Shown: one piece after another, positions 13,907 to 36,425 of the stretch
How positions within the stretch are numbered: the first letter of the stretch is position 1
How the letters are laid out: the number at the start of each line of letters is the position of its first letter
NCBI GenBank assembly: GCA_945883795.1
Contig: CAMCYC010000016.1
Coordinates: 1-42,906, forward strand
DNA: 42,906 bases
Source: Sulfurimonas crateris
Lineage (GTDB): Bacteria; Campylobacterota; Campylobacteria; Campylobacterales; Sulfurimonadaceae
Direction of reading: 5' to 3'
Program-made: the position numbers and the translations under genes
Notes under the pieces: generated by a model
Database searches by the model: none
What the model saw: only the letters and a program-made list of their open reading frames with translations
What the model was told of the DNA's origin: nothing

Positions 13907-15967
13907 TTATTCTTCTATTTGAACTTGATTTCTACCATTTTCTTTTGCTTTATAGAGTGCTTTATCTGCTCTTTGTATTGTAGTATCAATATTTTCACCA
14001 ACTCTGTAAAGCGTTGCACCAAAGCTACATGTAAGTTTTCCAATATCACTAAAAGTGTTGTATTGCACTCTTTGTCGCAAGTGTTCTAAGGCTCGTAAAA
14101 GAGATTGTATAGATTCGCTTTCTATTAAAACAATAAACTCTTCTCCACCCCATCGGATAAAAAAGTCTTTTTTTCGTATGGATGAAGTAGCCAATTTTGT
14201 TAACTCTTTTAAAATAGTATCTCCCACAATATGACCATAATTGTCATTTACTTTTTTGAAAAAATCTATATCCAAAATTGCCAAGCCTAAATGGTTTGCA
14301 TCTGAAATTTTAGTGACTATATGAGAAAAGTTGTTATCTAAAAACTCTCTGTTGAGCGCACCAGTGAGTTTATCATGCGTTACTTTGTTTTTTAGGTCAA
14401 TTTTTTCTATCATTGTTGAGCTAATATCTGTGAGTGACACAATAAAGTCATCTCCCTCAAATTTACTAATAGCAACACTAAATGCATGTGGCATATTGTG
14501 TAAATCGTGCATAGCAACTACTCTGCAATCATCTTCAAGAGGTTCCAAGGCTTCTATCCAGTTTATACCTTTTGGAATTTTACTCACGCTAAAATAGTTA
14601 TGCATCTCTATAAATTTATCACTAATATCTGCATAAAACTTTGTAAATTCTTCGATTTTACTAATTCCAAAAAAATGGCACATAGAGTAGTTTGCCATTT
14701 TTAATTGTTTTCCATCAGATATAATAATCATATTTTTTTGGTGGTCAAAAAGTTTTTGTAGCTTTTTTTGGCTTTTTTTAATTTCTATTTGTTGCTCTTC
14801 TTTGGCTTTTTTGTCTGTAATATCTTGTCTAATTGCCATATATCCAATTTTTTTATCATCATCATCCAAAAGAGGAAATATTGTTGCATTTACCCAATAA
14901 AGAGAGCCATCTTTTTTTACATTTTTCACTTCTCCATTCCATATTTCATTATTCTTAATTGTATCCCAGAGTAAATCATAGGTGCTGTCTTCTATATCTA
15001 CATGGCGTAAAATATTGTGGCTTTTTCCAATAAATTCCTCTCTTGAATAACCTGTTAATTTACAAAATGCTTTTGAAACATCAGTAATAATTCCATTCAA
15101 ATCTGTTGAAGAAGAGATAATATTTGTATCCATAATATCCACATACCGTGCTATCTTCTTTTCATATATTTTTTTCTGGCTAATATCTTCTGCTATTCCC
15201 ATATAGCCGATAATTTCTTTTGTACTATTTCGCAAGGCACTTACAGAGAGATTTACAACTATTTTATTATTTTTTTTAGTTATAAAGTCCCATTCATGCA
15301 TATTACTCATCTCATATCTGCTTTTGATGACAAAAACATCAAATCCTACTTCAATATCTATTCCAAGCTCTTTTGAAAACTGTTTTGCTCTTTGTTGCAC
15401 TTGAATGATATCGTCAAAAAGAAAAGGTGTTTTTTTACCTAGTAACTCTTCTGAAGCGTACCCTAACATCTCCTCTGCAGCCTTATTAAAGAGTGTAATT
15501 GTTCCATTTAAATCTGTGACAATAATCGCATGAGAGGAGTATTGCAAAACAGATTGCAAAAAGTTTTTATTCTCTGAGAGTTCTACGCTTAATTTATATC
15601 GCTGAAGGTGGTTATGAACTCTAGCCAAAAGTTCTTCTCTGGAAAAAGGCTTGGATATATAATCTACAGCTCCCTCTTGAAACCCTTTAACCATACTTTG
15701 AGAGTCACTTTTAGCGGTTAAAAATATAAAAGGTATAGTAGAAGTTTCGTGATTTTGCTTGAGCTTTTGTGCAACCTCATAACCATTCATCTCAGGCATG
15801 ACAATATCGAGTAAAATTAAGTCAATATTCTCATCTGAGTTTACTATCTCTAAGGCGGTAAAACCATCTATTGCAACTAATAGATTATACTCTTCATGGA
15901 GTATCTCTAATAAGATAGAGATATTTGTACTCTCATCATCTACGATTAAAATAGTTTGCTTATCCAT
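13907..15967 (-). CDS. Response regulator diguanylate cyclase, REC-PAS-PAS-PAS-GGDEF
   Basis: This 686-residue protein is the likely output of the adjacent kinase cluster. The receiver domain (1-120) has D10-D11, phospho-acceptor D54 in LILLDIVMPEMNG and K107. It is followed by two clear PAS domains (about 132-264 and 273-388) and a weaker third (about 403-520). The C-terminal GGDEF domain (about 525-686) has an intact active site RWGGEEF (607-611) and the inhibitory I-site RKKD at 598-601, exactly five residues before it. It should therefore make cyclic di-GMP under product feedback. No membrane segment is seen. Its start overlaps the end of the HPt-containing kinase gene by 8 bp, so the two are translationally coupled. 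That pairing makes D54 a good candidate receiver for the neighbour's HPt (inference). Confidence 0.93.
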   Translation of the reverse strand: MDKQTILIVDDESTNISILLEILHEEYNLLVAIDGFTALEIVNSDENIDLILLDIVMPEMNGYEVAQKLKQNHETSTIPFIFLTAKSDSQSMVKGFQEGAVDYISKPFSREELLARVHNHLQRYKLSVELSENKNFLQSVLQYSSHAIIVTDLNGTITLFNKAAEEMLGYASEELLGKKTPFLFDDIIQVQQRAKQFSKELGIDIEVGFDVFVIKSRYEMSNMHEWDFITKKNNKIVVNLSVSALRNSTKEIIGYMGIAEDISQKKIYEKKIARYVDIMDTNIISSSTDLNGIITDVSKAFCKLTGYSREEFIGKSHNILRHVDIEDSTYDLLWDTIKNNEIWNGEVKNVKKDGSLYWVNATIFPLLDDDDKKIGYMAIRQDITDKKAKEEQQIEIKKSQKKLQKLFDHQKNMIIISDGKQLKMANYSMCHFFGISKIEEFTKFYADISDKFIEMHNYFSVSKIPKGINWIEALEPLEDDCRVVAMHDLHNMPHAFSVAISKFEGDDFIVSLTDISSTMIEKIDLKNKVTHDKLTGALNREFLDNNFSHIVTKISDANHLGLAILDIDFFKKVNDNYGHIVGDTILKELTKLATSSIRKKDFFIRWGGEEFIVLIESESIQSLLRALEHLRQRVQYNTFSDIGKLTCSFGATLYRVGENIDTTIQRADKALYKAKENGRNQVQIEE

Positions 15968-18900
15968 CTGCTAATTCCAATAACTTATAAATTTCACTAA
16001 ATATCTTATTTGCTTCTTTATATTTATAACCAAATAGAAAAGAACTTAATTCTTCTCTTCTCTTTTTACTTATATAAGGCGTTAATATCCCTTGCAACAA
16101 GACAACCCTTTCTTGAGATATCGCTTTAAAGTGTTTTACATCTTCTGATATTTCATACGAGTATTTTATCACTTCTTCTTTTGTATACTCTTTAAGCACA
16201 ATATCCTCTTCTTCATTTAAATTCATGAGAAGATTTTTGCGTGTCTCTTTGAGCAGTATAACCAATATTGAAGTAAGTTTTGTTTTAATTTGGATATCTT
16301 GTGAGTCATGTATCTCTTTTGAAAGTTTATATATCTCTGTGAGTGAAATATTTCCACTGACACCTTTGAGTGAGTGAATGGCTTTGTCAAAAGCATCTGT
16401 TTGTATTTTTGATATATCAAAAATATTTTCTACACTTTCATACTGTTTGCAAAAATTCATAAGGAGTTGTTTGATTATTTTTGGTTTATCTCCGATTCTA
16501 TGGTGTAACTCTTCTAAATCTACTCCATAAAATTCTATTTTTTTTAATTGAGTTGATGGGAGTTCTTTTTGGAAAATCTCTTGATGAGATTTTTTTGGTT
16601 TTATAAATTCAAGCAGAGTGCGAATCAGCTCATTTTGATTTATAGGTTTTGCTAAATGTGCAGACATTTTAGCTTCGCTTGTTTTTATAACATCTTCTTG
16701 CATGACAGCAGCACTCAAAGCAATTATAGTGGTATATTTGTCTATTTTTTTGATATGTTTGGTTGCTTCAAAACCATCCATGATAGGCATTTGAAGGTCC
16801 ATTAAAATAAGGTCGTATTTTTTACCTGCTTTTATCATCTGTACCGCTTCTTTGCCGTTATTGGCTATTTCGACAATAATCTCTAAATTTTCTAACATTC
16901 CAGTTGCTACTATTTGATTTATCTCATTATCTTCTACAAGTAAGATATGAGCGTTTTTAAGAGCATCTGTATTTAATTCTAAACTAGGTTGTATTATTTT
17001 GTACTCTTGTTTTTCAGCTTTACCAAATGTGGCACTAAAAATAAATGTACTTCCAACGCCCTCATGACTCTCTACCCAAATATCACCACTCATAAGATTT
17101 ACAAGCTGTTTAGAAATAGCAAGACCAAGTCCTGTTCCACCATATTTACGGGTTATAGAATTATCTGCTTGTGTGAACTCTTTGAAAATGTTTTCTTGAG
17201 TCTCTTGATTCATCCCCATGCCACTGTCTTTTATAGAAAACTTTAATTTTTTATGGTAATTATCTTCGTGTATAAGTGTAACATTTATATCAATCGAGCC
17301 TTGTTTTGTAAATTTGATGGCATTGCCTACTATATTTGTAAGTATCTGTGTCAAACGAAAAGCATCCCCAATAAGAACGAAATTTTTTTTAGAATCTATA
17401 TTGAGCAACAGATTTTTAGTACTTGCCTGATAACCAAAAAGGTCTTTTATATTCTTCAATACGCTCTCAAGCTCAAATATATTATGTTCTAAATTTAATT
17501 TTCCTACTTCAATTTTAGAATAATCAAGTACATCGTTAATCACATGTAAAAGTGCTTTTGAAGAAGTTTTTGCTTTTTCGAGGTAATCTCTTTGTTGTGC
17601 ATTAAGGTTTGTTTTTAATGCAAGTTCTGTTAGACCTATAACACCATTAAGTGGAGTGCGTATTTCATGGGACATATTTGCTAGAAACTCTGATTTTGTT
17701 TTGTTGGCTTTTTCCGCTGTTTCTTTGGCGATAATGAGTTCTTCTCGTATCTTTTTATCTTCGGTAATATCTTTAGTGCTTATAAATAATCTCTTTTTGT
17801 CTGGCATCAACACCATGCTCATATTAACAGTTATTTGTTTATTATCAAAAACACATGATTTTTCAAAATTTGTTATAAACCCTTTTTCAAAAGCTTCAGC
17901 TACTATTTTTTTTGCTCTTAGTTTATCTTCTGATATGCTAAGACCTATACAAGATTTAGTGAGTAAAACATCTCTGGAAAAACCTGTCATCTGAAGATAG
18001 GCTTCATTAAAATCTAAAAAGTTAGTTTCTGAATCTAAGATAGCAAGTCCATCTTTTGAGGATTTGAATATTGCCTCAAACTCATTTTTTTGATACTCTA
18101 TTATATTTTGTTGCTCTTGTGCTTTTGTCACATCATGAAATGTTGCATAGAGATAAGGTTTTTCATCCAAAATAATTCTTACAACATTTACAGATATATC
18201 TTTTATAGTACCATCATTTGTTTTGTGTTTTGTGAGAAATTTATCCCATCCTTTTTGAATTATATTTATTTGACGCACTTTTATCTCATCCTCATTTTCG
18301 AGTATTTCAAGCTCTTTTGTAGTGAGATTTTTAAACTCCTCTTTTGTATAACCATACATCTCGAGAGCTTTTTTATTGAATTCTAAGAATTTTTGAGTCT
18401 TTATATCTAGCAAAACAATCGCATCCAAAGCTTCTTGAAAGATAGTGAAAAACTTTAATTCAGCTCTGTAAATTTTTAATTCAATATTTTTTAATGTGGT
18501 AATATTTCTAGCAATCCCAAAGAGTCCAATTACTTTTCCAGCAGAGTTTTTTATTGGATATTTGCGATTGTCTACCCACCCTTGTTCATTATTTTCATCA
18601 ATAAAAGGTTGAATTTCCTCAATGGAAGAGAGATTTCCTTTGTAAATCTCTTTTTCAAGTTCATAATAGATATCTGCATGTTCTTTTGTAAAGAGTTCAT
18701 AATCCATTTTCCCAACTATCTCTTTACCTTTTTTATATCCTACAATCTTTGCCATACTATCGCTTGATGCGGTTAAAATATGGTTTGCATCTTTAAAAAA
18801 AATAAAATCGTTTGTATTTTCCAACATCGCTTTAAAGTTCATCTCCATGATACTTAGCTCATCTGATTTTTCATCCAAGTTGTGCAAATTTCTTACATCA

Positions 18901-19196
18901 ATTAATTTGAGTGTAAATATATTATTCTCAATAGGATTAAATGTACCCTTTACTATGATGATTTCTTTGTTTTTTTTGAAAATACGAAAAATGAGTTCAA
19001 AAGATTCATTTACGGTAGAGATAACAAATACTTCAATATCATCAGGATGAATAAGTTCAAGTAGATTTATCCCATTATTTAGAATCTCTTGATGAATTTT
19101 AATCTCAAATATAGTTTCAAAATTTTCTTTTTCTATATAAAATAGGAGTTGCTTATTGTTATAATTATTGTAGATTAGAATAGTATTTTTTATCAT
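15960..19196 (-). CDS. Hybrid sensor histidine kinase, PAS-HisKA-HATPase-REC-HPt
   Basis: The 1078-residue protein lacks transmembrane helices. An N-terminal PAS-like part (1-105) is followed by PAS domains at about 120-233, 245-360 and 372-482. HisKA has H510 in [15 protein letters not shown]. HATPase boxes are [15 protein letters not shown] and [10 protein letters not shown]. The receiver (about 748-868) has E755-D756 and phospho-acceptor D800 in [13 protein letters not shown]. The HPt domain (about 890-985) has H941 in [11 protein letters not shown]. It is the only one of the three hybrid kinases here with an HPt, so it may serve as the shared phosphotransfer node. It overlaps the REC-GGDEF gene by 8 bp and lies 8 bp from the phytochrome gene. 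A C-terminal helical tail (about 1000-1078) is unassigned. Confidence 0.92.
16593..17696 (-). repeat. Kinase-receiver core, copy 1 of 3
   Basis: The segment coding HisKA-HATPase-REC is closely similar at DNA level to 19214-20314 and 22549-23646. Long blocks are identical or nearly so, including synonymous positions, around the receiver Asp and the HisKA start. Confidence 0.8.
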
Positions 19197-19204
19197 GCTA
19201 ACTC

Positions 19205-21892
19205 TTATTGAATTTTTTTTGGTTTTATAAATTCAAGCAAAGTGCGAATTAATTCATGTTCATCAATAGGTTTTGCCAAATGTGAATCCATTTTAGCTTC
19301 ATTTGTTTTTATAATATCTTCTTGCATGACAGCAGCACTAAGAGCAATTATAGGAATATCTTTGTCTATTTTTTTGATATGTTTGGTTGCTTCAAAACCA
19401 TCCATGACAGGCATTTGAAGGTCCATTAAAATAAGGTCGTATTTTTTACCTGCTTCTATCATCTCTACTGCTTCTTTGCCGTTATTGGCTATTTCGACAA
19501 TAATCTCTAAATTTTCTAACATTCCACTTGCTACGATTTGATTTATTTCATTATCTTCTACAAGCAATATATAGGCATTTTTAAGAGCATCAGCATTTAA
19601 TTTTAGAATAGGCATGATTATTTTTTCTTCTTGTTTCACTTCGCCAAATATGGCATTAAAGATAAAAGTACTTCCTACGCCTTCTTCGCTTTCAACCCAA
19701 ATATCGCCATTCATAAGATTGATAAGTTTTTTAGAGATAGCAAGTCCAAGTCCTGTTCCACCGTATTGGCGTGTTATGGAATTATCTGCTTGACTAAACT
19801 CTTGACAAAGTCTTTTTTGAGCCTCTTTACTTATTCCTATACCACTGTCTTTTATAAAAAACTTTAACTTTTGTTCATTGTTATCTTCATGTATGAACTC
19901 AACTTTTATATCTATAAAACCTTGTTTTGTAAATTTTATTGCATTACCTACTAAATTTGTAAGGATTTGAGTCAAACGAAGAGAATCGCCAATAAGCGAA
20001 ATTTTATCGTATGTCATTGTGAGTGATAAACCTTTTTGATTCGCTTGGTATTCAAACAAATATTTTATATTGTTCAAGACGCTCTCAAGTTCAAATAACT
20101 GCTGTTCTAAATAAAGTTTTCCTGCTTCTATTTTTGAATAATCAAGAATATCATTGACAACTTGTAAAAGTGCGTTAGAAGAAGTTTTTGCTTTTTCGAG
20201 ATAACCCCTTTGTTGTGAATCAAGATTTGTTTTTAAAACCAATTCAGTCAAGCCCAAAACACCATTAAGTGGAGTTCTTATCTCATGGGACATATTTGCT
20301 AAAAACTCACTTTTAAATTTATTTGCTTTTTGGGCTTCATCTTTTTCGATTCTGAGTTTTTTAGTTTCCTCTAAGAGTTCAAATTTTTTATAAATACCAA
20401 AAAACTTTTGGGCTATTAAAACAACAGAATTAATCTCTTCAGGTAAAAAAGGAGATGAAGTACCTACAACAACCTCTTTCCAACTCTCAAAAGAGGCTCT
20501 TGGCTCAATGATTTTTCTACCATTTTCATAGCGAACTTGTTTTTGTGGTTCTCCTGCCCATGTTTTAATTTGTGCTTCTTCATAGCGAAGAAATAAAAGG
20601 TAAGCATCCTCTATATCAGGAATTTTAACACCAACAAGACCACCAATTTTAGTTGCTAAATTTTGAGTTTGTGGAAATTCTATACCTAAATGAGAAGATT
20701 GAAAATAGTTCTCAGAAATATTTTCTTTTGTGATGTTCAAAAGTATATTAAAATCAGTTGTTGCCATACTTTTATTATTGCTAATATATTTATCATGATA
20801 ATACACAGCCACTACATCACATTGAATAGTTTCTTTTAAAAACTCAATCTTTTCCGTGATTGTTTCTTGAAAGTTATGCTCATTTTTTGATTCTAGTTTA
20901 CTTAAATATACTTCCCTTTTGATACGAAGCTCAACTAAGAATTTATACTCTTCAAGATTTTGTTTTTGCTCAATTTTCAAAGAGAAAATCTTACTTAAAA
21001 GATAATATGCAGAGTAGAATTTTAAGTTGATTTTTTTAGGAATAGGATGATGACAGGCAATAAGTCCCCATAATTTTCCTTCAATTATAAGAGAGATTGA
21101 CATGGAGGAACCAACGCCCATATTTTTTAAATACTCAATATGTATTGGAGAAACACTACGACAATAACAATGACTCATGTCTAAAGGCTTTTGTGTCAAA
21201 GGGTTGAGAGTGGGTGTAATGATAGAAGAAGTTTCATGTACATCTTCTATAATACGAAAAGTATTTTTTAAATATAAAGCACGGGCTTGAGCGGGTATAT
21301 CACAGGCGGGAAAGTGATGTCCCAAATAGTTCTCTTCTAATATGTCATTTTCTTGTGTTAAAACAATTCCATTATAATCTTTATCAAATTTATAAATCAT
21401 AACTCTATCAAATCCACTTATATCTTTGACCGATTTTGCGATAGATTGAAGTAATATTTCCAAAGTTTTATCTGTTTGGCAATATTCAAGTGCTTTACTT
21501 ATAATATCTGCTGTATTGAGATAATTAGCATCATATATTAAATTATCATGACTTATCTCAAGAATAATAAAGTGTTCTTCACAATGAAGTGTACAGAAAA
21601 TCTTTTGAGAATTATTATTTTCATACAAAGTGCCAAAATTCAATTTGTGTAAGAGCAAATTATCAATAGTGCTATGAAGACTCTGTATAAATTGAGGTGT
21701 AAAAAAATCTTGTAAATCTTTTTGAAGCATCTCTTTTGCAGAAATATTTGTAATAGATGCACAATTATCACTTACTTGCAAAACTTTCAAATCATCATAA
21801 CTCACTACAATTAAAATAGCATTTTGTTGTATCGCAGAAAGCGTATGAATAGGCTCTTTGTCACAACTGTTTAATTCTTCAATATTCATCAT
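19205..21892 (-). CDS. bphP: Bacteriophytochrome hybrid histidine kinase, PAS-GAF-PHY-HisKA-HATPase-REC
   Basis: This is a red/far-red photoreceptor kinase of 895 residues from the ATG at 21892 (21889 also possible), with the start overlapping the heme oxygenase stop. The PAS domain begins [14 protein letters not shown], where C10 matches the biliverdin-linking Cys of bacteriophytochromes. The GAF domain has [11 protein letters not shown] (D198, equivalent to the Asp of PASDIP; Ser is replaced by Cys), [16 protein letters not shown] (H251, Y254) and LIACHHP (H281). The PHY domain has the tongue motifs WAGEP and EPRASF (PRxSF). HisKA H536, HATPase and a C-terminal receiver with D824 follow; there is no HPt. 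With all chromophore-pocket residues present and a heme oxygenase upstream, a photoactive holoprotein is expected. Its receiver suggests phosphorelay to an external HPt, plausibly that of the downstream gene. Confidence 0.95.
19214..20314 (-). repeat. Kinase-receiver core, copy 2 of 3
   Basis: This is the 3' part of bphP. Its DNA nearly matches the cores at 16593-17696 and 22549-23646, while the upstream sensor regions are unrelated. It looks closest to copy 3: both end [15 protein letters not shown] and share SHLAKPID. Confidence 0.8.
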
Positions 21893-22436
21893 AAAAGCTC
21901 TCAAGTTCAAGATAAAGCTTACATACATCTAATATAAGTTTTTTTTGTTTCTCTTTTGTATTACTGTAATCTTCTATGGTTTGTATGATAATTTTCCACT
22001 GTTGCATAAAAAGAGATGGATTTGTTTGTAAAAATAAAAAGCGATAATCCGAGGGCATAAAAGAGCGAATAGATTTTAAAATCACCATGGCTCCATGTCT
22101 TGAACCTTCTGTTATATAAAGTGCGGCAATCGCTGAGGAAAAATCAGTAATAAACGAAGCATCAAAACTTACTTTTGGCAAAGGGATATTATAAGCTTCT
22201 AACTCTTTTTTAGCTTCTAATCCTCGTGGAATATACACAATTCCATATTTCTCAAATTGAGGTAGAAAATGGTTGAGTTTACTATCAAGAGCTGTAAAAA
22301 TTACATATTGAAGAGATAAAAACCTCTGATAATCATTAATACTTGCATTTTGTGAAAATAAATTTTGATTTATACTTTTACTCTCAAGATTGTCATGGAA
22401 AGGTTTTGAAAGTTTTTTTATTCGCTCTGATAGCAT
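21879..22436 (-). CDS. bphO: Biliverdin-producing heme oxygenase (BphO-like)
   Basis: The enzyme opens heme to biliverdin, iron and CO, and here would supply the chromophore for the phytochrome encoded immediately downstream. The product of about 185 residues matches compact bacterial heme oxygenases: an N-terminal helix [11 protein letters not shown] with the proximal heme-ligand His, [19 protein letters not shown], and the distal-helix-like [15 protein letters not shown], which corresponds to the (Y/V)xEGSxLGG motif with a His replacing Leu. Two consecutive ATGs start the frame; the second (22436) has better spacing from AAAGG. The stop overlaps the start of bphP, giving tight coupling. A TATAAT lies just upstream, so bphO-bphP may be transcribed separately from the large kinase gene before it. 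Confidence 0.88.
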
Positions 22437-22463
22437 CATGCGCCTTTATTATATTTTAATTTA

Positions 22464-22469
22464 ATTATA
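22464..22469 (-). promoter_or_regulatory. -10 element for the bphO-bphP transcription unit
   Basis: The minus strand reads TATAAT 25 bases ahead of the bphO ATGs, inside the only non-coding gap (106 bp) of the signalling block. It could let the light-sensing genes be expressed independently of the upstream kinase. Confidence 0.5.
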
Positions 22470-22545
22470 TCAAATTACTTTTTCAGATTCTTCTGTTTTG
22501 AATCTTTTCAAAAAAATCTAAATTTTCTTCATCACACTTAAAAAC

Positions 22546-25500
22546 TTATTTTGGTTTTATAAATTCAAGTAAAGTGCGAATTAATTCATGTTCATCAATC
22601 GGTTTTGCCAAATGTGAATCCATTTTAGCTTCATTTGTTCTTATAATATCTTCTTGCATAACAGCAGCACTAAGAGCAATTATAGGAATATTTGTATCTA
22701 TTTTTTTGATACGCTTTGTTGCCTCAAAACCATCCATGACAGGCATTTGAAGGTCCATTAAAATAAGGTCGTATTTTTTACCTGCTTCTATCATCTGTAC
22801 TGCTTCTTTACCGTTGTTGGCAATATCGACAATAATCTCTAAATTTTCTAACATCCCACTTGCTACCATTTGATTTATTTCATTATCTTCTACAAGCAAT
22901 ATATGAGTATTTTTAAGTGAATCAGCATTTAATTTTAGAATAGGCGTGATTATTTTTTCTTCTTGTTTCACTTTGCCAAATGTGGCATTAAAGATAAAAT
23001 TACTTCCTACGCCTTCTTGGCTTTCAACCCAAATATCACCACTCATAAGATTGATAAGTTTTTTAGAGATAGAAAGTCCAAGTCCTGTGCCTCCGTATTG
23101 TCGAGTTATGGAATTGTCTGCTTGATTAAACTCTTTAAAAAGATTTTCTTGCGCTTTTTTACTCATTCCTATACCGCTATCTTGTACAGAAAATTGTAAC
23201 TTTTTGTAGTGTTTGTCTTCATGTATAAGGGTAACTTTTATATCTATAGAACCTTTTGTTGTAAATTTTATGGCATTGCCTACGATATTTGTAAGTATCT
23301 GCATTAAACGGAGAGAATCGCCAATAAGAGAGAAGTTGTCATTTGTTGTTATAAGTGATATCCCTTTTTGATTTGCTTGGTATTCAAATAAATCTTTAAT
23401 GTTACTGATAACAGTTTCAAGTTCAAAGATATTATGCTCTAAATTAAGTTTTCCTGCTTCTATTTTGGAATAATCAAGAATGTCATTAATAACATGTAAA
23501 AGTGCTTTAGAAGATTTTTTTGCCTTTTGAAGATAATCTCTTTGTTGTTCATCAAGGTTTGTTTTTAAGACAAGTTCTGTAAGACCTATCACGCCATTAA
23601 GTGGAGTGCGTATTTCATGGGACATATTTGCTAAAAATTCTGACTTTGATTTATTGGCTTTTTCTGCTTCCTCTTTTGCAAGAATAAGCTCTTTATTTTG
23701 TTCTTGAATCACTTCTGCTTGTTTTTTTAATTCACTAATATCAAAAGTAATCCCAATGGCTTCGGTAGAGTCTTTTCGTAAAGAGGTCATGCTTGTGAGT
23801 AAAACTATTTGTGTTCCATCTTTTTTAACGCAGTTTATTTCTCGTGTAAAAACTCCGCTAGTATTGAGTGCTGTGTAACCTTCTTTACCATAACTGATAT
23901 ATTCTTTTTCATCTTGGTACATAATTCTGCTAGGTTTGCCTTGAAGTTCCCCTTTTTCATACCCTAGCATTCGCTCAAATGTTTCATTCGTCCATTTAAA
24001 GTGCCTATCTTTTAAATGAACAAAACCTGTTGTTTGCACTTTATAAAGGGCTTCTTGTTCCGTTAAAAGAGTTTCTAAGTGTATCTCTTTATTTTTTTGT
24101 TCAGTTATATCATGAAAAGTAGCATGTATAATAGGTTCATCATCTAGTACAAAAACCTTAACAGTTACTACAATATCTTTTAAACTCCCATTTTTCATTC
24201 TATGTTTTGTTGTAAATCTATCAAAACCATTTTTTAAAATTGCTTGTTGTGTTGCAATAATTTGTGCTTCATCATGCATAGCATCAAAAGCTTTTACGCT
24301 TAAATGTGCAAACTCCTCTTTTGTATAACCATACATCTCATAAGCTTTATGATTAAACTCAATAAATGTTTGTGTCTTTGGATTCATTAAGACAATGCCA
24401 TCAAGTGATTCTTCAAAAAATGTTTGGAATTTTAATTGTGTTTTATGCAAAGCGAATTCAATTTGTTTTTGATGGGTAATATCTCTAGCGGAGGCATAAA
24501 GGTACAATTTTCCTTCAATTTCAATCCCTTTTGCATTGATTTGCGCATCAACTATTGTTCCATCTTTTTTGATGTGTTTTGTTTCAAATGTTTTAGGAGA
24601 AGTTATCAATTCTTGAATAACTATTGGAATTTGTTCTTTTTGGAGGATAAATTCCCAATCTTTTACATTTAAGTTGCGAACTTCATCATATTCATACCCT
24701 AAATGTTGTGCAAAAGAGCGACTATAAGCGATAATATTTCCAGCTTCGTCTAAAATATGGATACCATCAGATGCCAATTCCAAAAGTTTTTCATAATAAT
24801 TTTTAGCATTTTGCACTTTTAATTCAGCAATTTTAGTTTCAGTTATATCATGAATATACCCATACCAAATGACACTTCCATTGGTTTGTTTTTCGGGTTT
24901 AGATACTCCTTTTACCCAAATAACACCTTTGTCTGGATGAACAACTCTGTATTCTGTTTCCCATAATGTGAGACGCTTAAAAGAGGTTTGTATTGTGCCA
25001 ACAACATGTTCTATATCTTGTGGGTGCAAGACTTTAAAAATTTTTGTAGCATCTTCTTTTACTTCTTGAGGGGTGACGCCATAAATATTATAAATATGTT
25101 CGGAAGCATAAGGAAAACAACTTTTTCCATCTGGAAATACTTGAAAAGTATAAATAACTCCAGGGATATTTTCTGCAATATTTGTAAGTTTTTTATTGGA
25201 CTGGAGTAGTTTATCTTCAAGAATTTTTTTGTCTGTAATGTTACGAACTGAAGCATAAATATAATTTGTGTCAAAAATAGGAATTTTTACGGCTGTAATA
25301 CTTGCATCGTAAATTGTTCCCTCTTTACGGCGATGTTTTGTTTCAAAGCTAATTGGTTGCGTTGGTGTATTGGCTACATGTTGGATTGCTTGCTCTTTTG
25401 TATGTGCTACATCCCAATCATAAACATGCAAACTTTGCATCTCCTCGATGCTATATCCAAGTGTTTGTGCAGCCATTTGAGAACATTCAAGTAAACTACT

Positions 25501-26373
25501 TTGTGTGTCCATAATAAAAATACTATCAGAGGCATTTTCCATGATTGCTTTGTAGCGTTGTTTGTCAATTTCTGTTTGTTTTTGGAGTTGTTCAAGTTTT
25601 GCTTCATTCTCTTTTGCTTGTGTAATGTCAGTGATGATAGAAAAAATTAGTTTTCCATTTTCGGTATCGATAGGAGAAGCTAAAACTTCAACAGTGCGAA
25701 TATCTCCATTTTTGAGTTTATGCTGAAAAATAAAATCATTTTTTTCTCTTTGTATTGCTGCTTGTTCATACATTAAAATTGTGTTATATTCAAGGGTATT
25801 AATATCGTTAATATGAAGTGAGAGAAATTCATCATGCGTATATCCATAAAATTTTTGAGCACTTTCATTAGCATCAATAATGGCACTATTGAGAGGATTC
25901 ACAAGTAACATCACTGAATCATGTTTAAGAAACATGGAACTCATGCGGTCTTTGAGAATACTTGTTTCTCTTTGAAGCTCGATTTCACTAGAAACATCAA
26001 GGATATAACCAATATAATGGGTAATCTCACCATTTTCTGAGCGAACTATTTGGCATGAATCCTTAACCCAACGGTATTTTCCAGAGCTATCTAAATAGCG
26101 ATAAGGTTTATGTACAAAAAAATTGGATTCAAGGTTATTTGTCGCAATTATTATCTCCTGAGATACTTCTAAAAGGTCGTCTGGATGGATTTGATTTATG
26201 TAGTTTAATGTACCGCCAAGATACGCTGAGGGTTCATATCCATAGATATTAAAAAGATTACCAGTAACCAACTCAACAGGCCATCCAGATTTATTTTTAA
26301 ATATGAATACAACAATAGGACTTTTTTCAAATAACTCTATATTCAATAGTGAATGCTCAATTTTATGATTCAT
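22546..26373 (-). CDS. Multi-PAS hybrid sensor histidine kinase (seven PAS, HisKA-HATPase-REC)
   Basis: This very large soluble sensor kinase has 1275 residues. PAS units lie at about 12-130, 143-253, 270-383, 395-513, 525-634, 645-758 and 767-884. Several end in the typical DIT/DIS PAC motif, and two pairs look like internal duplicates (GYSIEEMQSLHVYDWD against GYEYDEVRNLNVKDWE). HisKA H919 lies in [15 protein letters not shown]; HATPase has [15 protein letters not shown] and GGTGLGLSIS. The receiver has D1207 in [13 protein letters not shown] and ends at FIKPK without an HPt, so an outside HPt is needed to pass phosphate on. No obvious heme or flavin ligand motif stands out. It is the first gene of the minus-strand block, preceded by TATAAT at 26434-26429 and a weak ribosome-binding site. 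Confidence 0.93.
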   Translation of the reverse strand: MNHKIEHSLLNIELFEKSPIVVFIFKNKSGWPVELVTGNLFNIYGYEPSAYLGGTLNYINQIHPDDLLEVSQEIIIATNNLESNFFVHKPYRYLDSSGKYRWVKDSCQIVRSENGEITHYIGYILDVSSEIELQRETSILKDRMSSMFLKHDSVMLLVNPLNSAIIDANESAQKFYGYTHDEFLSLHINDINTLEYNTILMYEQAAIQREKNDFIFQHKLKNGDIRTVEVLASPIDTENGKLIFSIITDITQAKENEAKLEQLQKQTEIDKQRYKAIMENASDSIFIMDTQSSLLECSQMAAQTLGYSIEEMQSLHVYDWDVAHTKEQAIQHVANTPTQPISFETKHRRKEGTIYDASITAVKIPIFDTNYIYASVRNITDKKILEDKLLQSNKKLTNIAENIPGVIYTFQVFPDGKSCFPYASEHIYNIYGVTPQEVKEDATKIFKVLHPQDIEHVVGTIQTSFKRLTLWETEYRVVHPDKGVIWVKGVSKPEKQTNGSVIWYGYIHDITETKIAELKVQNAKNYYEKLLELASDGIHILDEAGNIIAYSRSFAQHLGYEYDEVRNLNVKDWEFILQKEQIPIVIQELITSPKTFETKHIKKDGTIVDAQINAKGIEIEGKLYLYASARDITHQKQIEFALHKTQLKFQTFFEESLDGIVLMNPKTQTFIEFNHKAYEMYGYTKEEFAHLSVKAFDAMHDEAQIIATQQAILKNGFDRFTTKHRMKNGSLKDIVVTVKVFVLDDEPIIHATFHDITEQKNKEIHLETLLTEQEALYKVQTTGFVHLKDRHFKWTNETFERMLGYEKGELQGKPSRIMYQDEKEYISYGKEGYTALNTSGVFTREINCVKKDGTQIVLLTSMTSLRKDSTEAIGITFDISELKKQAEVIQEQNKELILAKEEAEKANKSKSEFLANMSHEIRTPLNGVIGLTELVLKTNLDEQQRDYLQKAKKSSKALLHVINDILDYSKIEAGKLNLEHNIFELETVISNIKDLFEYQANQKGISLITTNDNFSLIGDSLRLMQILTNIVGNAIKFTTKGSIDIKVTLIHEDKHYKKLQFSVQDSGIGMSKKAQENLFKEFNQADNSITRQYGGTGLGLSISKKLINLMSGDIWVESQEGVGSNFIFNATFGKVKQEEKIITPILKLNADSLKNTHILLVEDNEINQMVASGMLENLEIIVDIANNGKEAVQMIEAGKKYDLILMDLQMPVMDGFEATKRIKKIDTNIPIIALSAAVMQEDIIRTNEAKMDSHLAKPIDEHELIRTLLEFIKPK
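22549..23646 (-). repeat. Kinase-receiver core, copy 3 of 3
   Basis: This is the 3' part of the seven-PAS kinase. It shares long near-identical DNA blocks with copies 1 and 2, for example the segment around 22736-22860 against 19405-19530. Confidence 0.8.
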
Positions 26374-31264: not shown

Positions 31265-32818
31265 ATGGGTTTAAAAATTGAGAGTTTTACATTAACTTTG
31301 TTCGGCGACATTTCTGAAATAATTTTTAGTATTGAAAAGATAAAGACAGAGCATGGGCTGATACATATCGTTGCAAATAATTACGATACACCTTTGGTTC
31401 AAAAGTTGCAGGCAGAATTTTTACAAATCTTGCCAAAAATTGGTATAAGCTTGATACACCATGAAGACAAAGAAAAAATCTTTGTACTTGCATACTTTTT
31501 AGATGAGACAATAGGCGACCACTCTATCTCTGATAAACTTTTAATGCAGTTACACTTAGAAAATAGCTTAAAAGAAAATCTGATACAAGATTATAGAAGT
31601 AAACTTTTTAATAAATATTTTACAGATAATTTAACAAATCTCCCAAATGTATATCAACTTAGAAAAGATTTAGGTGATAATGAAAATGCGGGTCTTGTAA
31701 TTATTAGCTTAGATAATCTAAAAACAATTAGTAATTTTTATGGGTTTGTTGTATGTGATTTTAGTGTTGAAGAGGTTGGAAAAGAGCTTAAATCTAGAAT
31801 GAAAGAGCATAAAGTGTATAAACTATCAGAGGATGAGTTTGCTATAATTTTGGAAGATAATTTGCCATTTTATACATTAAAAACTTTTTTAAATGAACTC
31901 TATGAAAGCATACAAAATGTTGTCGTAAAATACCAAGATATAAAAATATTTATTGATTTTACACTTGCTTCTTGCTCTAATACCAATAATCAAGAGATGT
32001 TTTCAAAAGTCTCCATGGCAATGAAATATGCAAAAGATAATAGACTGAGATTTTGGATATATGAGGACAGAATGCATTTTGAAAATGAGTATGAAAAAAA
32101 TATTCATCTCTCAGGAATTGTACGACATGCTGTAGAGAATTCTAAAATTATCCCTTATTATCAAGCTGTTATTGATAATAAAACTTTAAAAATTGTCAAA
32201 TATGAATGTTTGGCAAGGATGATAGATGAAAATGGCAAAATACTTTCCCCTTTACTATTTATCCCAATAGCAAAAAAAATAAAAGTTTATAATGTTGTGA
32301 CAAAAACAATTATAGATAAATCTTTTGCTGCATTTGAAAATAGTGAGTTATCTTTTAATATAAACTTGTCTATTGAAGATATTATGAGTAGTGAAATTTT
32401 TAACTTTATTTTAGAAAAACTCAAAAACTCCAAAGCATCTTCCCGTGTAACTTTTGAAGTTTTGGAATCAGAAGCTGTACAAGATTTTCAAAGAGTGGGT
32501 AAATTTGTAAGCGAAGTGAGACGCTATGGTGCAAAAATTGCTATAGACGATTTTGGAAGCGGATATTCAAATTTTTCCTATTTGACAAAAATGAGCCCAG
32601 ATTATATAAAAATAGATGGTTCTCTTATAAAAGAGATTGATGTGGATAAAAATGCACTTTTAGTGGTTGAAACTATTGTGCAATTCGCTCAAAAATTAGG
32701 TGTAAAAACGATAGCAGAATATGTAAGTTCAAGCACTATCATGAATAAAGTGCAATCCTTGGGAATTGATTATTCTCAAGGATATTATATAGATGAACCC
32801 TCAGTTAATTTTAAATAA
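31265..32818 (+). CDS. c-di-GMP phosphodiesterase, degenerate GGDEF plus EAL
   Basis: The protein has 517 residues from the ATG at 31265 (GGGAG five bases upstream; a GTG at 31253 is less likely). Residues 1-110 are an unassigned N-terminal domain. A GGDEF-like domain (about 115-270) keeps the fold start NLTNLPNVYQL, but its signature is LSEDEF, so it cannot be a cyclase and may bind nucleotide. The EAL domain (about 285-517) appears complete: ECLAR for EAL, FNINLS, FEVLESE, DDFGSG, DYIKIDG and the late Glu in TIAEYV, then QGYYIDEP. It should hydrolyse cyclic di-GMP to pGpG. Its stop codon lies inside a hairpin that is repeated beyond the next gene. A cytoplasmic location is likely, as no membrane helix is seen. 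Confidence 0.9.
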   Translation: MGLKIESFTLTLFGDISEIIFSIEKIKTEHGLIHIVANNYDTPLVQKLQAEFLQILPKIGISLIHHEDKEKIFVLAYFLDETIGDHSISDKLLMQLHLENSLKENLIQDYRSKLFNKYFTDNLTNLPNVYQLRKDLGDNENAGLVIISLDNLKTISNFYGFVVCDFSVEEVGKELKSRMKEHKVYKLSEDEFAIILEDNLPFYTLKTFLNELYESIQNVVVKYQDIKIFIDFTLASCSNTNNQEMFSKVSMAMKYAKDNRLRFWIYEDRMHFENEYEKNIHLSGIVRHAVENSKIIPYYQAVIDNKTLKIVKYECLARMIDENGKILSPLLFIPIAKKIKVYNVVTKTIIDKSFAAFENSELSFNINLSIEDIMSSEIFNFILEKLKNSKASSRVTFEVLESEAVQDFQRVGKFVSEVRRYGAKIAIDDFGSGYSNFSYLTKMSPDYIKIDGSLIKEIDVDKNALLVVETIVQFAQKLGVKTIAEYVSSSTIMNKVQSLGIDYSQGYYIDEPSVNFK

Positions 32819-32823
32819 CTGAG
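32778..32823. repeat. 46-bp direct repeat, copy at the EAL gene 3' end
   Basis: It matches 35598-35643 at 43 of 46 positions. It includes the last 13 codons of the EAL gene and the hairpin. The two copies bracket the glucan synthase gene with a period of 2,820 bp. Confidence 0.9.
32800..32823. terminator. Hairpin over the EAL stop codon
   Basis: A perfect 8-bp stem CTCAGTTA/TAACTGAG encloses ATTTTAAA, and the right arm contains the EAL stop codon TAA. It lies between two convergent genes and could be a weak bidirectional terminator, though it lacks a T tract directly after the stem. Confidence 0.5.
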
Positions 32824-32828
32824 AGCCA

Positions 32829-35423
32829 TTAAAATTCAACTTTTTTTTGTCCACGAATCTCTATAATTCTTAAAATAATCGCCGAAATATAAGGGATACT
32901 TTGTACCAAAAGTGTTAGAGCAAATAAATCTATCTCAATAATTTCATTTTCATTACTCCAAAGAAGTCCAAAAAATGAACCAAGCAGTAAAAAAGCTAAT
33001 ATGGATTCATATATTATAGGATTGGAGGAAGATTTTTTTGTATTTCCCCCTTTTTCCGTTCTCTTAAAAGGTAATTTATCTTTTACAAATCCATCAAAAA
33101 CTGCTTTAAAAATTGTAAGTTGCAAACTCATAGCCGCAAATGCACCCAAAAGTGAATGAAAGAAATCGGCTTTTACTCTTGTTTTATAAAGTACAAAAGA
33201 GTGAATGACATTGACCAAAAATGAGGTTAAAATCGGTATGGTTAAAGCGATAGTAGGAATTGTAACACCTACAAAAATAATCACTGGAACCCAGATAATA
33301 TTTAAAACAGCAGTAACTGTTCCAAGTGCATCAGATAGCCAAAAAAACCATCCTGTTATAAAATGATGCTTTTGCGCATGCGTTAGTGTCGTGGAAGAGG
33401 ATTTGAAATGTTTCCAATGTTTTTTAAGAATCTGTATCGCACCATACGCCCATCTATGGCGTTGATTTTTAAATGCTTCTAGCGTGTCTGGAAGAAGTCC
33501 ATATCCATATCTACGGTTTGTATAATGTGCGATATATCCTGCCTCAAAAAGTCTTAAACCAAGTTCGCTATCTTCAACAATTGTATCGGTATTCCATTGC
33601 CCAACTTCATCAAAGGCACTTTTGCGAAGTAGTAGCATTGTTCCATGAGCAACGATAGCATTTTCTTCATTGCGTTTTACCATGCCAATGTCAAAAAAAC
33701 CTGCGTATTCTGCGTTCATAGCAGATTTGAAAAGTGATTCATCCCCATCTCTGTGGTCTTGAGGCGCTTGAACTAATGCAACTTTTGCATCATCAAAAAT
33801 CGGTACTAAATCAATAAGCCAATTTGGACTTATTACATAATCGGCATCAATAATAGCTAAAATTTCAGTGTCTGGATTAGTAGAAGACAGAGCAGCATTA
33901 AGCGCTCCAGCTTTAAACCCAGTACATTGAATATCAAGATAAATAAATTTTGGACCGAGTTTTTCACATAACTCTTTGATAGGGGTTTTATAAAAATCTT
34001 CAGGGGTATTATTGATAATAACAAGCACTTCATAATTTGTATATTTTAGTTGTGATAATGCTATGAGCGTTTCTTCAAGAACATGGGGCTGTTCTTTGTA
34101 CGCTGGTACATGAATACTTACAAAAGGGACTTGATTTGATTTTAAATCAAGCGGAATAAGTCTTCTAGGGGGAAGCCCAATTGTACATTTAAAAAGTTCA
34201 TTCGCTTTGGCAAGAGTGATAATTGTAAGTGGTATCATAAGCATAGTTCCCATACCCCACATCACCCATACCCCAAAATTCATATAGTGAATAAAAGGAT
34301 AAACTGCAGACATGACAATACCAAAAGAGATACCTTGTGCAGCAAGAGCGTAAGTGATAGCATGCGTAAAGTTCATATATTGATTTCTTAAACCAATGAA
34401 AGTTAAAACAGAACCTAAAAAAGCTGCCACAACCATTTGAATAAACCAATATGGATAGACAAGAACATCCCCATGTAACTCAAATTTCAGATTGCGATTA
34501 GCATCAAATATTCCCCAATACTCTCCAACTCCACCCTCATCTTTTCCTTTCCATGGTTGGTCAAAAGCTTCAAGAAGGTTATAAGTGATATGCTGTTTTT
34601 TGGCTAAAATTAAAAATTTTCTAATAACGGTTGCTTGATTCTTTGGACTTGCAATGGCATCTTGATAATTATAACCTTGACTTGGCCAACCAAACTCCCC
34701 AATAGTAATTTGTTTATTTTTAAAAATATCTGTTGCTTGGGTATATACATTTTTGAAAAATGGCATAAAATTTTCAGCTTTGATTTTTTCCCAATATGGA
34801 AGAATGTGCATGTAGATAAAGTCTACCTCATTTGCCAAAGTTGGATTGTCAAACCAAATATTCCATACCTCCGCAGTAGTGACAAGCACTTTATGTTCAT
34901 GAAAGAGAATGCTTTTTCGATTTTTATTTTGTTTATTTGCTTCTGCATTGAGAGTAAAGAGCATTTGTTTAAAATCTCTGATAATGGTCACTAATTCTTC
35001 AAATTTTAAATCTTTACGAAGCAATACCTCATTTCCTACAATAACTGCATCCATATTTGTAAAATAGAGTGAAATAAGTGTTTTTGAAAGTTCTATTTCT
35101 TTAGTGTTGGCATCTGCATCAGAAGATAACCAGAGACCAAAATATGTCTGCATGCCAAGTTGTTTTGCAAACGGTAATACTTTTTGGGCATCAGAAGCAG
35201 AGTAAAGTCTAATCTTATTCGTAAAGCGTTTTAGAAGTTTTAAATCATGAATTATTTCATCATCACTTAACAACTCTTTTCTTGCATTTTTATAAGGCGT
35301 GTACGAGAGCGATTCTATAATATTATCAGCATCTGGTGGAGATATGATTTTATTGTTATTGTTGAGCCATAAAAAGATTTGAACGAGTGATGCAAAAAGA
35401 ACGGAGCTAATAATATATTTCAT
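32829..35423 (-). CDS. Membrane beta-glucan synthase, GH17-like plus GT2 (NdvB-like)
   Basis: The 864-residue membrane protein has an N-terminal anchor (about 5-20) followed by a periplasmic GH17-like domain. Candidate catalytic residues are E132 in AVIVGNEVLLR and E243 in ITIGEFGWPSQG. Two to three helices (about 325-405) precede a cytoplasmic GT2 domain with VSIHVPAYKEQ, IIDADYV (DxD at 526-528), VEDSELGLRL (E617-D618) and QRHRW (654-658). More helices follow (about 690-860). This architecture matches NdvB of Pseudomonas aeruginosa, which makes periplasmic (1,3)-linked glucans tied to biofilm drug tolerance. The GH17 part would transfer or cyclise chains (inference). The gene is flanked by 46-bp direct repeats and sits next to an EAL gene. 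Confidence 0.88.
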   Translation of the reverse strand: MKYIISSVLFASLVQIFLWLNNNNKIISPPDADNIIESLSYTPYKNARKELLSDDEIIHDLKLLKRFTNKIRLYSASDAQKVLPFAKQLGMQTYFGLWLSSDADANTKEIELSKTLISLYFTNMDAVIVGNEVLLRKDLKFEELVTIIRDFKQMLFTLNAEANKQNKNRKSILFHEHKVLVTTAEVWNIWFDNPTLANEVDFIYMHILPYWEKIKAENFMPFFKNVYTQATDIFKNKQITIGEFGWPSQGYNYQDAIASPKNQATVIRKFLILAKKQHITYNLLEAFDQPWKGKDEGGVGEYWGIFDANRNLKFELHGDVLVYPYWFIQMVVAAFLGSVLTFIGLRNQYMNFTHAITYALAAQGISFGIVMSAVYPFIHYMNFGVWVMWGMGTMLMIPLTIITLAKANELFKCTIGLPPRRLIPLDLKSNQVPFVSIHVPAYKEQPHVLEETLIALSQLKYTNYEVLVIINNTPEDFYKTPIKELCEKLGPKFIYLDIQCTGFKAGALNAALSSTNPDTEILAIIDADYVISPNWLIDLVPIFDDAKVALVQAPQDHRDGDESLFKSAMNAEYAGFFDIGMVKRNEENAIVAHGTMLLLRKSAFDEVGQWNTDTIVEDSELGLRLFEAGYIAHYTNRRYGYGLLPDTLEAFKNQRHRWAYGAIQILKKHWKHFKSSSTTLTHAQKHHFITGWFFWLSDALGTVTAVLNIIWVPVIIFVGVTIPTIALTIPILTSFLVNVIHSFVLYKTRVKADFFHSLLGAFAAMSLQLTIFKAVFDGFVKDKLPFKRTEKGGNTKKSSSNPIIYESILAFLLLGSFFGLLWSNENEIIEIDLFALTLLVQSIPYISAIILRIIEIRGQKKVEF

Positions 35424-35468
35424 GAATATCCCTAATAAAAATCGTCATTGTATATCAAATTTTAAAAA

Positions 35469-35480
35469 TTAGCATGCTAA
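35469..35480. promoter_or_regulatory. Palindrome in the glucan synthase upstream region
   Basis: TTAGCATGCTAA is a perfect 12-bp palindrome 46 bp upstream of the glucan synthase ATG. It could be an operator, but no regulator gene is nearby. Confidence 0.3.
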
Positions 35481-35597
35481 CATTTTTTATCGGCTATTAT
35501 CCGCTATTTCGTTCATATTTTTTTTAGTTTTAATAAATAAAATTTTAAAAGTTGGTTTGAATGTTTGAGTTATATTAAAAAAAGTGAAACATATTAT

Positions 35598-35643
35598 AAG
35601 GATATTATATAAATGAATACTCAGTTAATTTTAAATAACTGAG
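35598..35643. repeat. 46-bp direct repeat, second copy with EAL-tail remnant
   Basis: This copy still reads GYYINEYSVNFK and a stop on the plus strand, the C-terminus of the EAL protein. The upstream in-frame codon is a stop exactly at the repeat edge. It keeps the CTCAGTTA/TAACTGAG hairpin (35620-35643). The EI24 gene ends inside it. Confidence 0.9.
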
Positions 35644-36425
35644 TCTGAATGATGAATCTTTCTTAGCTCTATAAAGTAAGTATGTCCTAAATAAATTACA
35701 TAAAAAATAGCTCCAAAAAATATAGCAAATGGGACAAGTGAGATGAGATAAAGGGCTAATGTTCTGAATTTTATTTTATTACCATTAAAAAACTCTATTT
35801 TTTTGTTTTCTTCTGCAGAACAAAGAGTTGAAGAGATATCATAAGTGATTGTTTTATGAAAGAAATAATACAGCGGATAATTAAGTGCGACTAGATTGAC
35901 AATTGGTATAAAATAGAGCGGTATAAAAACTAAAAAGAGCAAGAGCATCACAAAAGTCCATTTGAGCATAAGTGTGATTCCTAGGAGCATGTTAGAGTGT
36001 CCTATAATTTGTATGTCTGGATAGTGTTTGGATTGAATCTCTTTTAGCACATAGGGTGTTAAAAATCCTAAAACAATAAGTGCCACAAAAATAGAGAGAT
36101 AAAGCACCAAAAAACCACCAATAGCATATACTAAAAAGCTTACAATCCAAGAGGTAAGAGCATAACTCATAAGAAAATTTACAAGCGTATTTCCTTGAAG
36201 TTGTGCATTGAGTGTTTCAGTGTGAGGTATCCCATTTTCTATGGTTGTTTGAGTAGATTCGATATGCATCGCTCCAATTTGGTCTACCCCGTATCCAGCA
36301 ACAGAAAAAAAGATAACATATAAAACAATCATAGTAAGCACAAACGGCATCAATGAATATTTAAGCATCCTTGGACTAAAAAAATCTTTTACACTTAAAG
36401 TTATCAAATCGGTTTCGGTTTTCAT
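35631..36425 (-). CDS. EI24-domain (CysZ-like) membrane protein
   Basis: The 264-residue membrane protein has about five to six hydrophobic helices (for example at 25-45, 90-130, 150-190 and 225-250) and the EI24/CysZ-type segment NYPLYYFFHKTITYDISSTL. CysZ itself is a sulfate transporter, but Campylobacterota EI24 proteins are uncharacterised, so no substrate is assigned. It overlaps the DUF3137 gene by 4 bp and belongs to a lemA-DUF3137-EI24 operon. The last codons (Ser-Val-Ile-stop) lie within the 46-bp repeat, so the C-terminus may have been altered when the repeat formed. Confidence 0.8.
   Translation of the reverse strand: MKTETDLITLSVKDFFSPRMLKYSLMPFVLTMIVLYVIFFSVAGYGVDQIGAMHIESTQTTIENGIPHTETLNAQLQGNTLVNFLMSYALTSWIVSFLVYAIGGFLVLYLSIFVALIVLGFLTPYVLKEIQSKHYPDIQIIGHSNMLLGITLMLKWTFVMLLLFLVFIPLYFIPIVNLVALNYPLYYFFHKTITYDISSTLCSAEENKKIEFFNGNKIKFRTLALYLISLVPFAIFFGAIFYVIYLGHTYFIELRKIHHSDSVI

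Follow-up and report, generated by a model that had tools for sequence, protein, structure and literature searches.

A predicted beta-glucan synthase gene of Sulfurimonas crateris lies between the two copies of a 46-bp direct repeat, and one copy is the native 3′ end of a neighboring EAL-domain gene. The window, which is the whole stretch of 42,906 nucleotides of contig CAMCYC010000016.1 that was analyzed, has no sign of a dedicated mobile element at this gene, and the gene's phylogeny argues for a resident of the genus. We give about an even chance to the explanation that this resident synthase gene was moved into a junction created by rearrangement, with a long duplication of the target as the result. 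Overall, the locus is an ordinary though instructive scar of genome rearrangement, and probably a case of a known kind of gene movement that is poorly understood. No new element is revealed by it.

The repeat and the gene ends that it carries

The positions of the features are collected in Table 1. The two repeat copies are identical at 43 of 46 positions and are 2820 bp apart from start to start, which agrees with an earlier note on this DNA made from the sequence alone. The mismatches fall at repeat positions 15, 21, and 22. The final 24 bp are without differences, and these 24 bp are the hairpin CTCAGTTA-ATTTTAAA-TAACTGAG. A gapped alignment of both copies extends weakly to ~53 nt, and the outer flanks of the copies are unrelated in sequence. 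When a 141-bp probe around copy 1 was searched against the organism's own genome (2.41 Mb in 126 contigs), copy 2 was the sole other match (E = 1.8e-13). When as many as 3 mismatches were allowed, the 24-bp hairpin was found at two sites in the genome, both of them the repeat copies, and there was no exact match in viral contigs. A dispersed repeat was thus ruled out, and a chance origin of the 46-bp repeat is excluded. The interval between the copies consists of 5 bp, the synthase gene, and 174 bp of upstream region, so the glycosyltransferase gene does fill this space, as had been described.

Table 1. Features at the EAL, synthase, and EI24 genes of the window.
Feature	Position	Strand	Basis
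EAL/GGDEF-domain gene, 521 aa	31253..32818	+	ORF; Pfam EAL 1.5e-59, GGDEF 8.6e-10; conserved block
Repeat copy 1: native EAL 3′ end with right hairpin arm	32778..32823	+	Tail conserved in orthologues
24-bp hairpin with 8-bp perfect arms and 8-nt loop, at the convergent EAL and synthase ends	32800..32823		Fold z
Unique interval between repeats, 2774 bp	32824..35597		Repeat boundaries
Predicted GH17-GT2 beta-glucan synthase, 864 aa, NdvB-like	32829..35423	−	Pfam and NdvB identity
Putative synthase promoter/leader region	35424..35473	−	Conservation with relatives
Repeat copy 2: EAL-tail duplicate outside any EAL gene; carries EI24 3′ end	35598..35643		Repeat comparison
EI24/CysZ-family gene	35631..36425	−	Pfam EI24 5.1e-19; conserved EI24-DUF3137-LemA block

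Copy 1 encodes the last 12 codons and the stop codon of the EAL gene (13 codons had been counted in the earlier note) and reads GYYIDEPSVNFK-stop. The tail GF/YYIDEPS(V/I)N is conserved in the EAL orthologues examined, with rare exceptions. Because these orthologues share the tail, copy 1 can be identified as the native end of the EAL gene, which supports the previous claim that the repeat derives from there. Copy 2 is also still readable to a stop, as GYYINEYSVNFK-stop, and the proline found in nearly all orthologue tails is missing from it. Such a loss is expected of a non-coding copy, and we regard copy 2 as a non-coding duplicate of the EAL tail.

The EI24 gene ends within copy 2, and its codons S-V-I-stop are repeat sequence read on the minus strand. 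The EI24 orthologues in relatives terminate close to this position, at most a few codons away, and have different residues there. On the opposite side of the interval, the stop codon of the synthase gene is 5 bp outside copy 1, where the hairpin overlaps the final EAL codons. On the minus strand the hairpin folds better than shuffled sequence (z = -3.5 and -2.5), and on the plus strand at copy 1 it is not clearly better than shuffled sequence (z = -1.1). A terminator consensus scan, in which 2 sites were found versus 1.6 expected, flagged only copy 2 on the minus strand as terminator-like. A canonical terminator was rejected for copy 1, which was not flagged and has no T-run right after the stem.

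The synthase gene and the blocks beside it

Pfam places a GH17 domain (Glyco_hydro_17, 4e-12) at residues 58-316 and a GT2 domain (GT2 families, to 1e-25) at residues ~435-720 of one protein, which is 35.5% identical to NdvB of P. aeruginosa over 95% of the protein. NdvB-like proteins with GH17 and GT2 have been proposed as makers of cyclic beta-1,3-glucan (PMC10237404). The BcsA-like orphan/NdvB proteins of pseudomonads have the same order, GH17 and then GT2 (PMC10237404), although the Sulfurimonas synthases are more distant relatives whose activity is putative. From these domains, the window gene would encode an NdvB-like GH17-GT2 beta-glucan synthase with a predicted beta-1,3-glucan activity. 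About 50 bp upstream of the start of the gene are conserved, with ~81% identity over 74 bp, including the start codon region, in comparison to the nearest relative (G131). Similar conservation was seen in many other relatives, so the synthase gene carries its own promoter region.

The gene was found in 30 of the 135 genus genomes searched (29 besides the window genome) and in 3 more genomes of the family. Its neighborhood is stable in one subclade. Among the window's clade and neighbors (G131, G049, G061, G067, G033, and G066), the flanking genes largely differ, and in G131 and G049 the gene is at a different location from that in the window genome. Nevertheless, the protein distances of the synthase follow those of EI24 (Spearman 0.83, 300 pairs from 25 genomes), and the window genome and G131 are sisters in both the synthase and EI24 trees, with support of 0.999 and 0.995. 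Since the synthase tree follows that of EI24 with the same sister genome, the comparison favors vertical descent, accompanied by loss and relocation, over a recent import. On the best reading, the synthase is a resident that now has a new location. It was absent from phages, and plasmids contained one distant NdvB only; carriage by a phage or plasmid was ruled out by these results. As a separate observation, several genomes have an interruption or a frameshift in the gene (loci L060 in G031, L061 in G110, and L054 in G051), which is in keeping with ongoing loss.

In relatives, the EAL gene belongs to a conserved YbgC-LPO29-UDG-EAL block, and EI24 heads the conserved block given in Table 1. Hundreds of kb separate the two blocks in single-contig genomes; examples are G004, with positions of 1.40 and 1.71 Mb, and G014, with 1.13 and 0.90 Mb. 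The gene downstream of EAL in many relatives encodes desulfoferrodoxin, and the gene downstream of EI24 in G131 encodes a UvrD-type helicase. Both of these former neighbors are present in the window genome on other contigs (C58 and C7, respectively), where they face other genes. Because the blocks are far apart in relatives and their former neighbors are on other contigs, the junctions at EAL and at EI24 are, on this comparison, both new in the window lineage. The adjacency of EAL and EI24 is thus not ancestral, and the junction is a lineage-specific rearrangement.

The earlier note had pointed to two arrangements to look for. One was an EAL gene directly facing EI24 without the synthase; this was found in no relative, the nearest of which, at only 72-82% identity in protein, is a distant one. 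The other was the 46-bp sequence beside other cargo. What lies 3′ of EAL varies within the genus. The sequence following EAL was inspected in 13 other genomes and held no direct repeat of the EAL tail, by which an attachment-site hotspot at the EAL end was rejected. The inverted similarities that do occur downstream of EAL in relatives are convergent EAL paralogues.

Possible origins of the arrangement

Re-siting of the resident gene would have proceeded as follows. A chromosomal rearrangement would have brought the EAL and EI24 blocks together at their 3′ ends, with the convergent EAL and EI24 genes sharing the EAL tail and its hairpin. The resident, vertically inherited synthase with its own promoter would then have entered this junction through recombination that was not site-specific and left 46 bp of the target duplicated. 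The EAL gene would have retained an intact end, and the other copy would have remained with EI24, giving it a stop codon and a 3′ hairpin, and may have drifted at its former coding positions. We infer in what order these steps occurred, which way the movement went, and by what mechanism the DNA recombined. An EI24 gene that reads into the hairpin and a synthase gene that stops 5 bp outside of it are expected if EAL-hairpin-EI24 is the older junction, and the promoter region going with the gene also supports re-siting. Against it, the predicted intermediate is the very arrangement that was absent among relatives. Also, the end product is the same whether the synthase moved or the flanking blocks moved to it. 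Of the cassette entry that the earlier note had proposed, a native EAL end in copy 1, a duplicate in copy 2, and one gene with its promoter inside are all retained in this scheme. The arrival of foreign DNA is not, since the synthase tree follows EI24, and cassette import was ruled out as the first choice for the same reason.

Insertions with this outcome are known elsewhere. Helicobacter pylori belongs to the same phylum as the window organism, Campylobacterota. In H. pylori, restriction-modification genes are reported to have been inserted in this manner with no mobile element involved (PMC1643837, PMC3031569, and PMC4978471, citing Nobusato et al. 2000), and insertion with long target duplication is reported for strains 26695 and J99 (Nobusato et al. 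2000, Gene 259:99). As described there, a gene without a transposase or integrase lies between long direct repeats, and the repeat originates from the target locus itself; the window is alike in both respects. Its 46-bp repeat exceeds ordinary transposon target duplications and is native to the target, being single downstream of EAL in the 13 other genomes. No integrase or transposase had been noted inside the interval, and the Pfam scan of the named window genes matched neither. The H. pylori cases are frequently restriction-modification genes and were observed as polymorphisms between strains, whereas the cargo in the window is a glucan synthase and no empty site was found among the relatives. 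The window case resembles insertion with long target duplication by analogy and is not a proven member of that class. In Arabidopsis, flanking direct repeats of >30 bp are more common at transposed genes than at non-moved genes, and they derive mostly from genic target sequence, as the window repeat does from EAL (PMC2869330). These are plant genomes, however, and the proposed route is circle excision from tandem duplications (PMC2869330).

A second scar was found in G134, where a 54-bp direct repeat flanks the synthase (locus L104, 7665-7730 and 10460-10540). The 54 bp just 3′ of the gene recur on its 5′ side, 114 bp ahead of the start. A hydrogenase-like gene is adjacent, and the 3′ copy is its native leader; the similarity score to the sister genome G031 is 60 for this copy compared to 29 for the 5′ copy, and G031 has no 5′ copy. 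The ancestral gene order is kept in G134, and a block with a hydrolase and an EAL-domain gene is inserted on the 5′ side of the synthase. When direct repeats in the flanks of 367 genes in the fetched loci were scored, the top two were both synthases (39 for the window and 33 for G134). The third (25.5) was apparently a coding paralogue and the remainder scored 18.5 or less. The window case was preselected in this comparison, and the chance that the next-best gene is another synthase (~21 among 366 genes) is ~6% by arithmetic. The link of flanking repeats to synthase genes is suggestive, not strong. Flanking repeats of this sort occur at 2 of ~31 synthase loci and were therefore ruled out as a regular mark of the gene. 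It is rather doubtful that the Sulfurimonas GH17-GT2 synthase, an ordinary metabolic gene and not a restriction-modification or toxin gene, repeatedly takes part in recombinase-free rearrangements that copy ~50 bp of the 3′ neighbor to the 5′ side.

The G134 case is also a difficulty for re-siting, as the synthase appears unmoved there and it is another inserted block that the duplicated segment goes with. It favors duplication and loss, or template copying at a break, over insertion. Under this possible though less probable explanation, the synthase first became the convergent neighbor of EAL, and the 46 bp of EAL tail just 3′ of it were copied to its 5′ side, either by a tandem duplication after which the first copy of the gene was lost, or through a template switch during replication. 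The EI24 block was then joined to the copied segment. The duplication alternative of the earlier note is kept in this modified form. It explains G134, where the geometry is the same and 54 bp from the 3′ side recur 5′ at the new block, better than insertion does, and it is consistent with the two strongest flanking repeats both being at synthases. On the other hand, three or more events would be needed in the window lineage, together with a deletion that ends exactly at the hairpin edge, and no remnant of a second synthase was found in the organism's own genome.

Natural transformation from another Sulfurimonas, with integration beside EAL through short homology, could account for the patchy presence of the gene and for the changing neighborhoods within the window's clade. 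The shared history of the synthase and EI24, sister genome included, makes this unlikely, and the one subclade with a stable neighborhood means that the patchiness can be due to loss. We find it more improbable still that the synthase is a small site-specific cassette that used the EAL 3′ end as its attachment site and displaced the old end. The anatomy does fit attL/attR, in that a 3′ gene end with a hairpin is directly repeated and one copy restores the gene, and a variable region 3′ of EAL would fit too. Unlike attL/attR elements, however, the window has no integrase domain or other recombinase in its named genes (Pfam), no attachment-site relatives, and, as cargo, one gene with a vertical phylogeny. 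The 13 other genomes had no EAL-tail direct repeat downstream of EAL and no other cargo with this repeat, the hairpin had no exact match in viral contigs, and the record from phages and plasmids is that given above. An assembly artefact, with a misjoin at the identical 24-bp palindrome, is the least probable of these explanations. The assembly is fragmented and the copies do share those 24 bases, but they differ at three positions and are therefore distinct sequences, with non-identical left parts in two contexts, and on each flank there is a match to a block conserved in the same genus. A very short k-mer would also be needed for a misjoin at 24 bp.

Genes can move without a recognizable mobile element, with long target duplications among the few traces left. 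The window case concerns a biosynthetic gene of an ordinary sort in an organism that is free-living and related to Helicobacter. Together with the similar scar at the synthase of another species (G134), it provides material on how general this route is in the phylum.

Other features of the window and its relatives

EAL paralogues were found tail to tail in five loci: L099 (G014), L100 (G004), L101 (G125), L103 (G065), and L093 (G131). These convergent pairs enclose 0 to 10 kb of variable genes, and their 3′ ends are inversely similar, which could permit inversion of the enclosed interval. Another GH17-domain gene (~640 aa) directly follows EAL in L109, L110, L111, and L112 (G020, G124, G021, and G104).

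The window-wide scan for long repeats found two further cases. A 108-bp direct repeat, 96% identical, is present near both contig ends (1064-1171 and 42710-42817) and has four partial matches elsewhere in the genome. The second copy begins at the stop codon of a pyruvate-kinase-like gene and runs on into an ORF that is truncated where the contig ends. A 33-aa fragment at this repeat had no Pfam match; the repeat looks like an insertion-sequence end where the assembly broke. The first copy is in a gene-poor stretch after the first ORF (800-1690), together with an apparent decayed gene remnant. The other case is three neighboring, paralogous hybrid histidine-kinase genes (15963-26373), one of which has a phytochrome-type PHY region. 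Long stretches of their DNA, up to 656 bp, are similar, which points to duplication accompanied by gene conversion.
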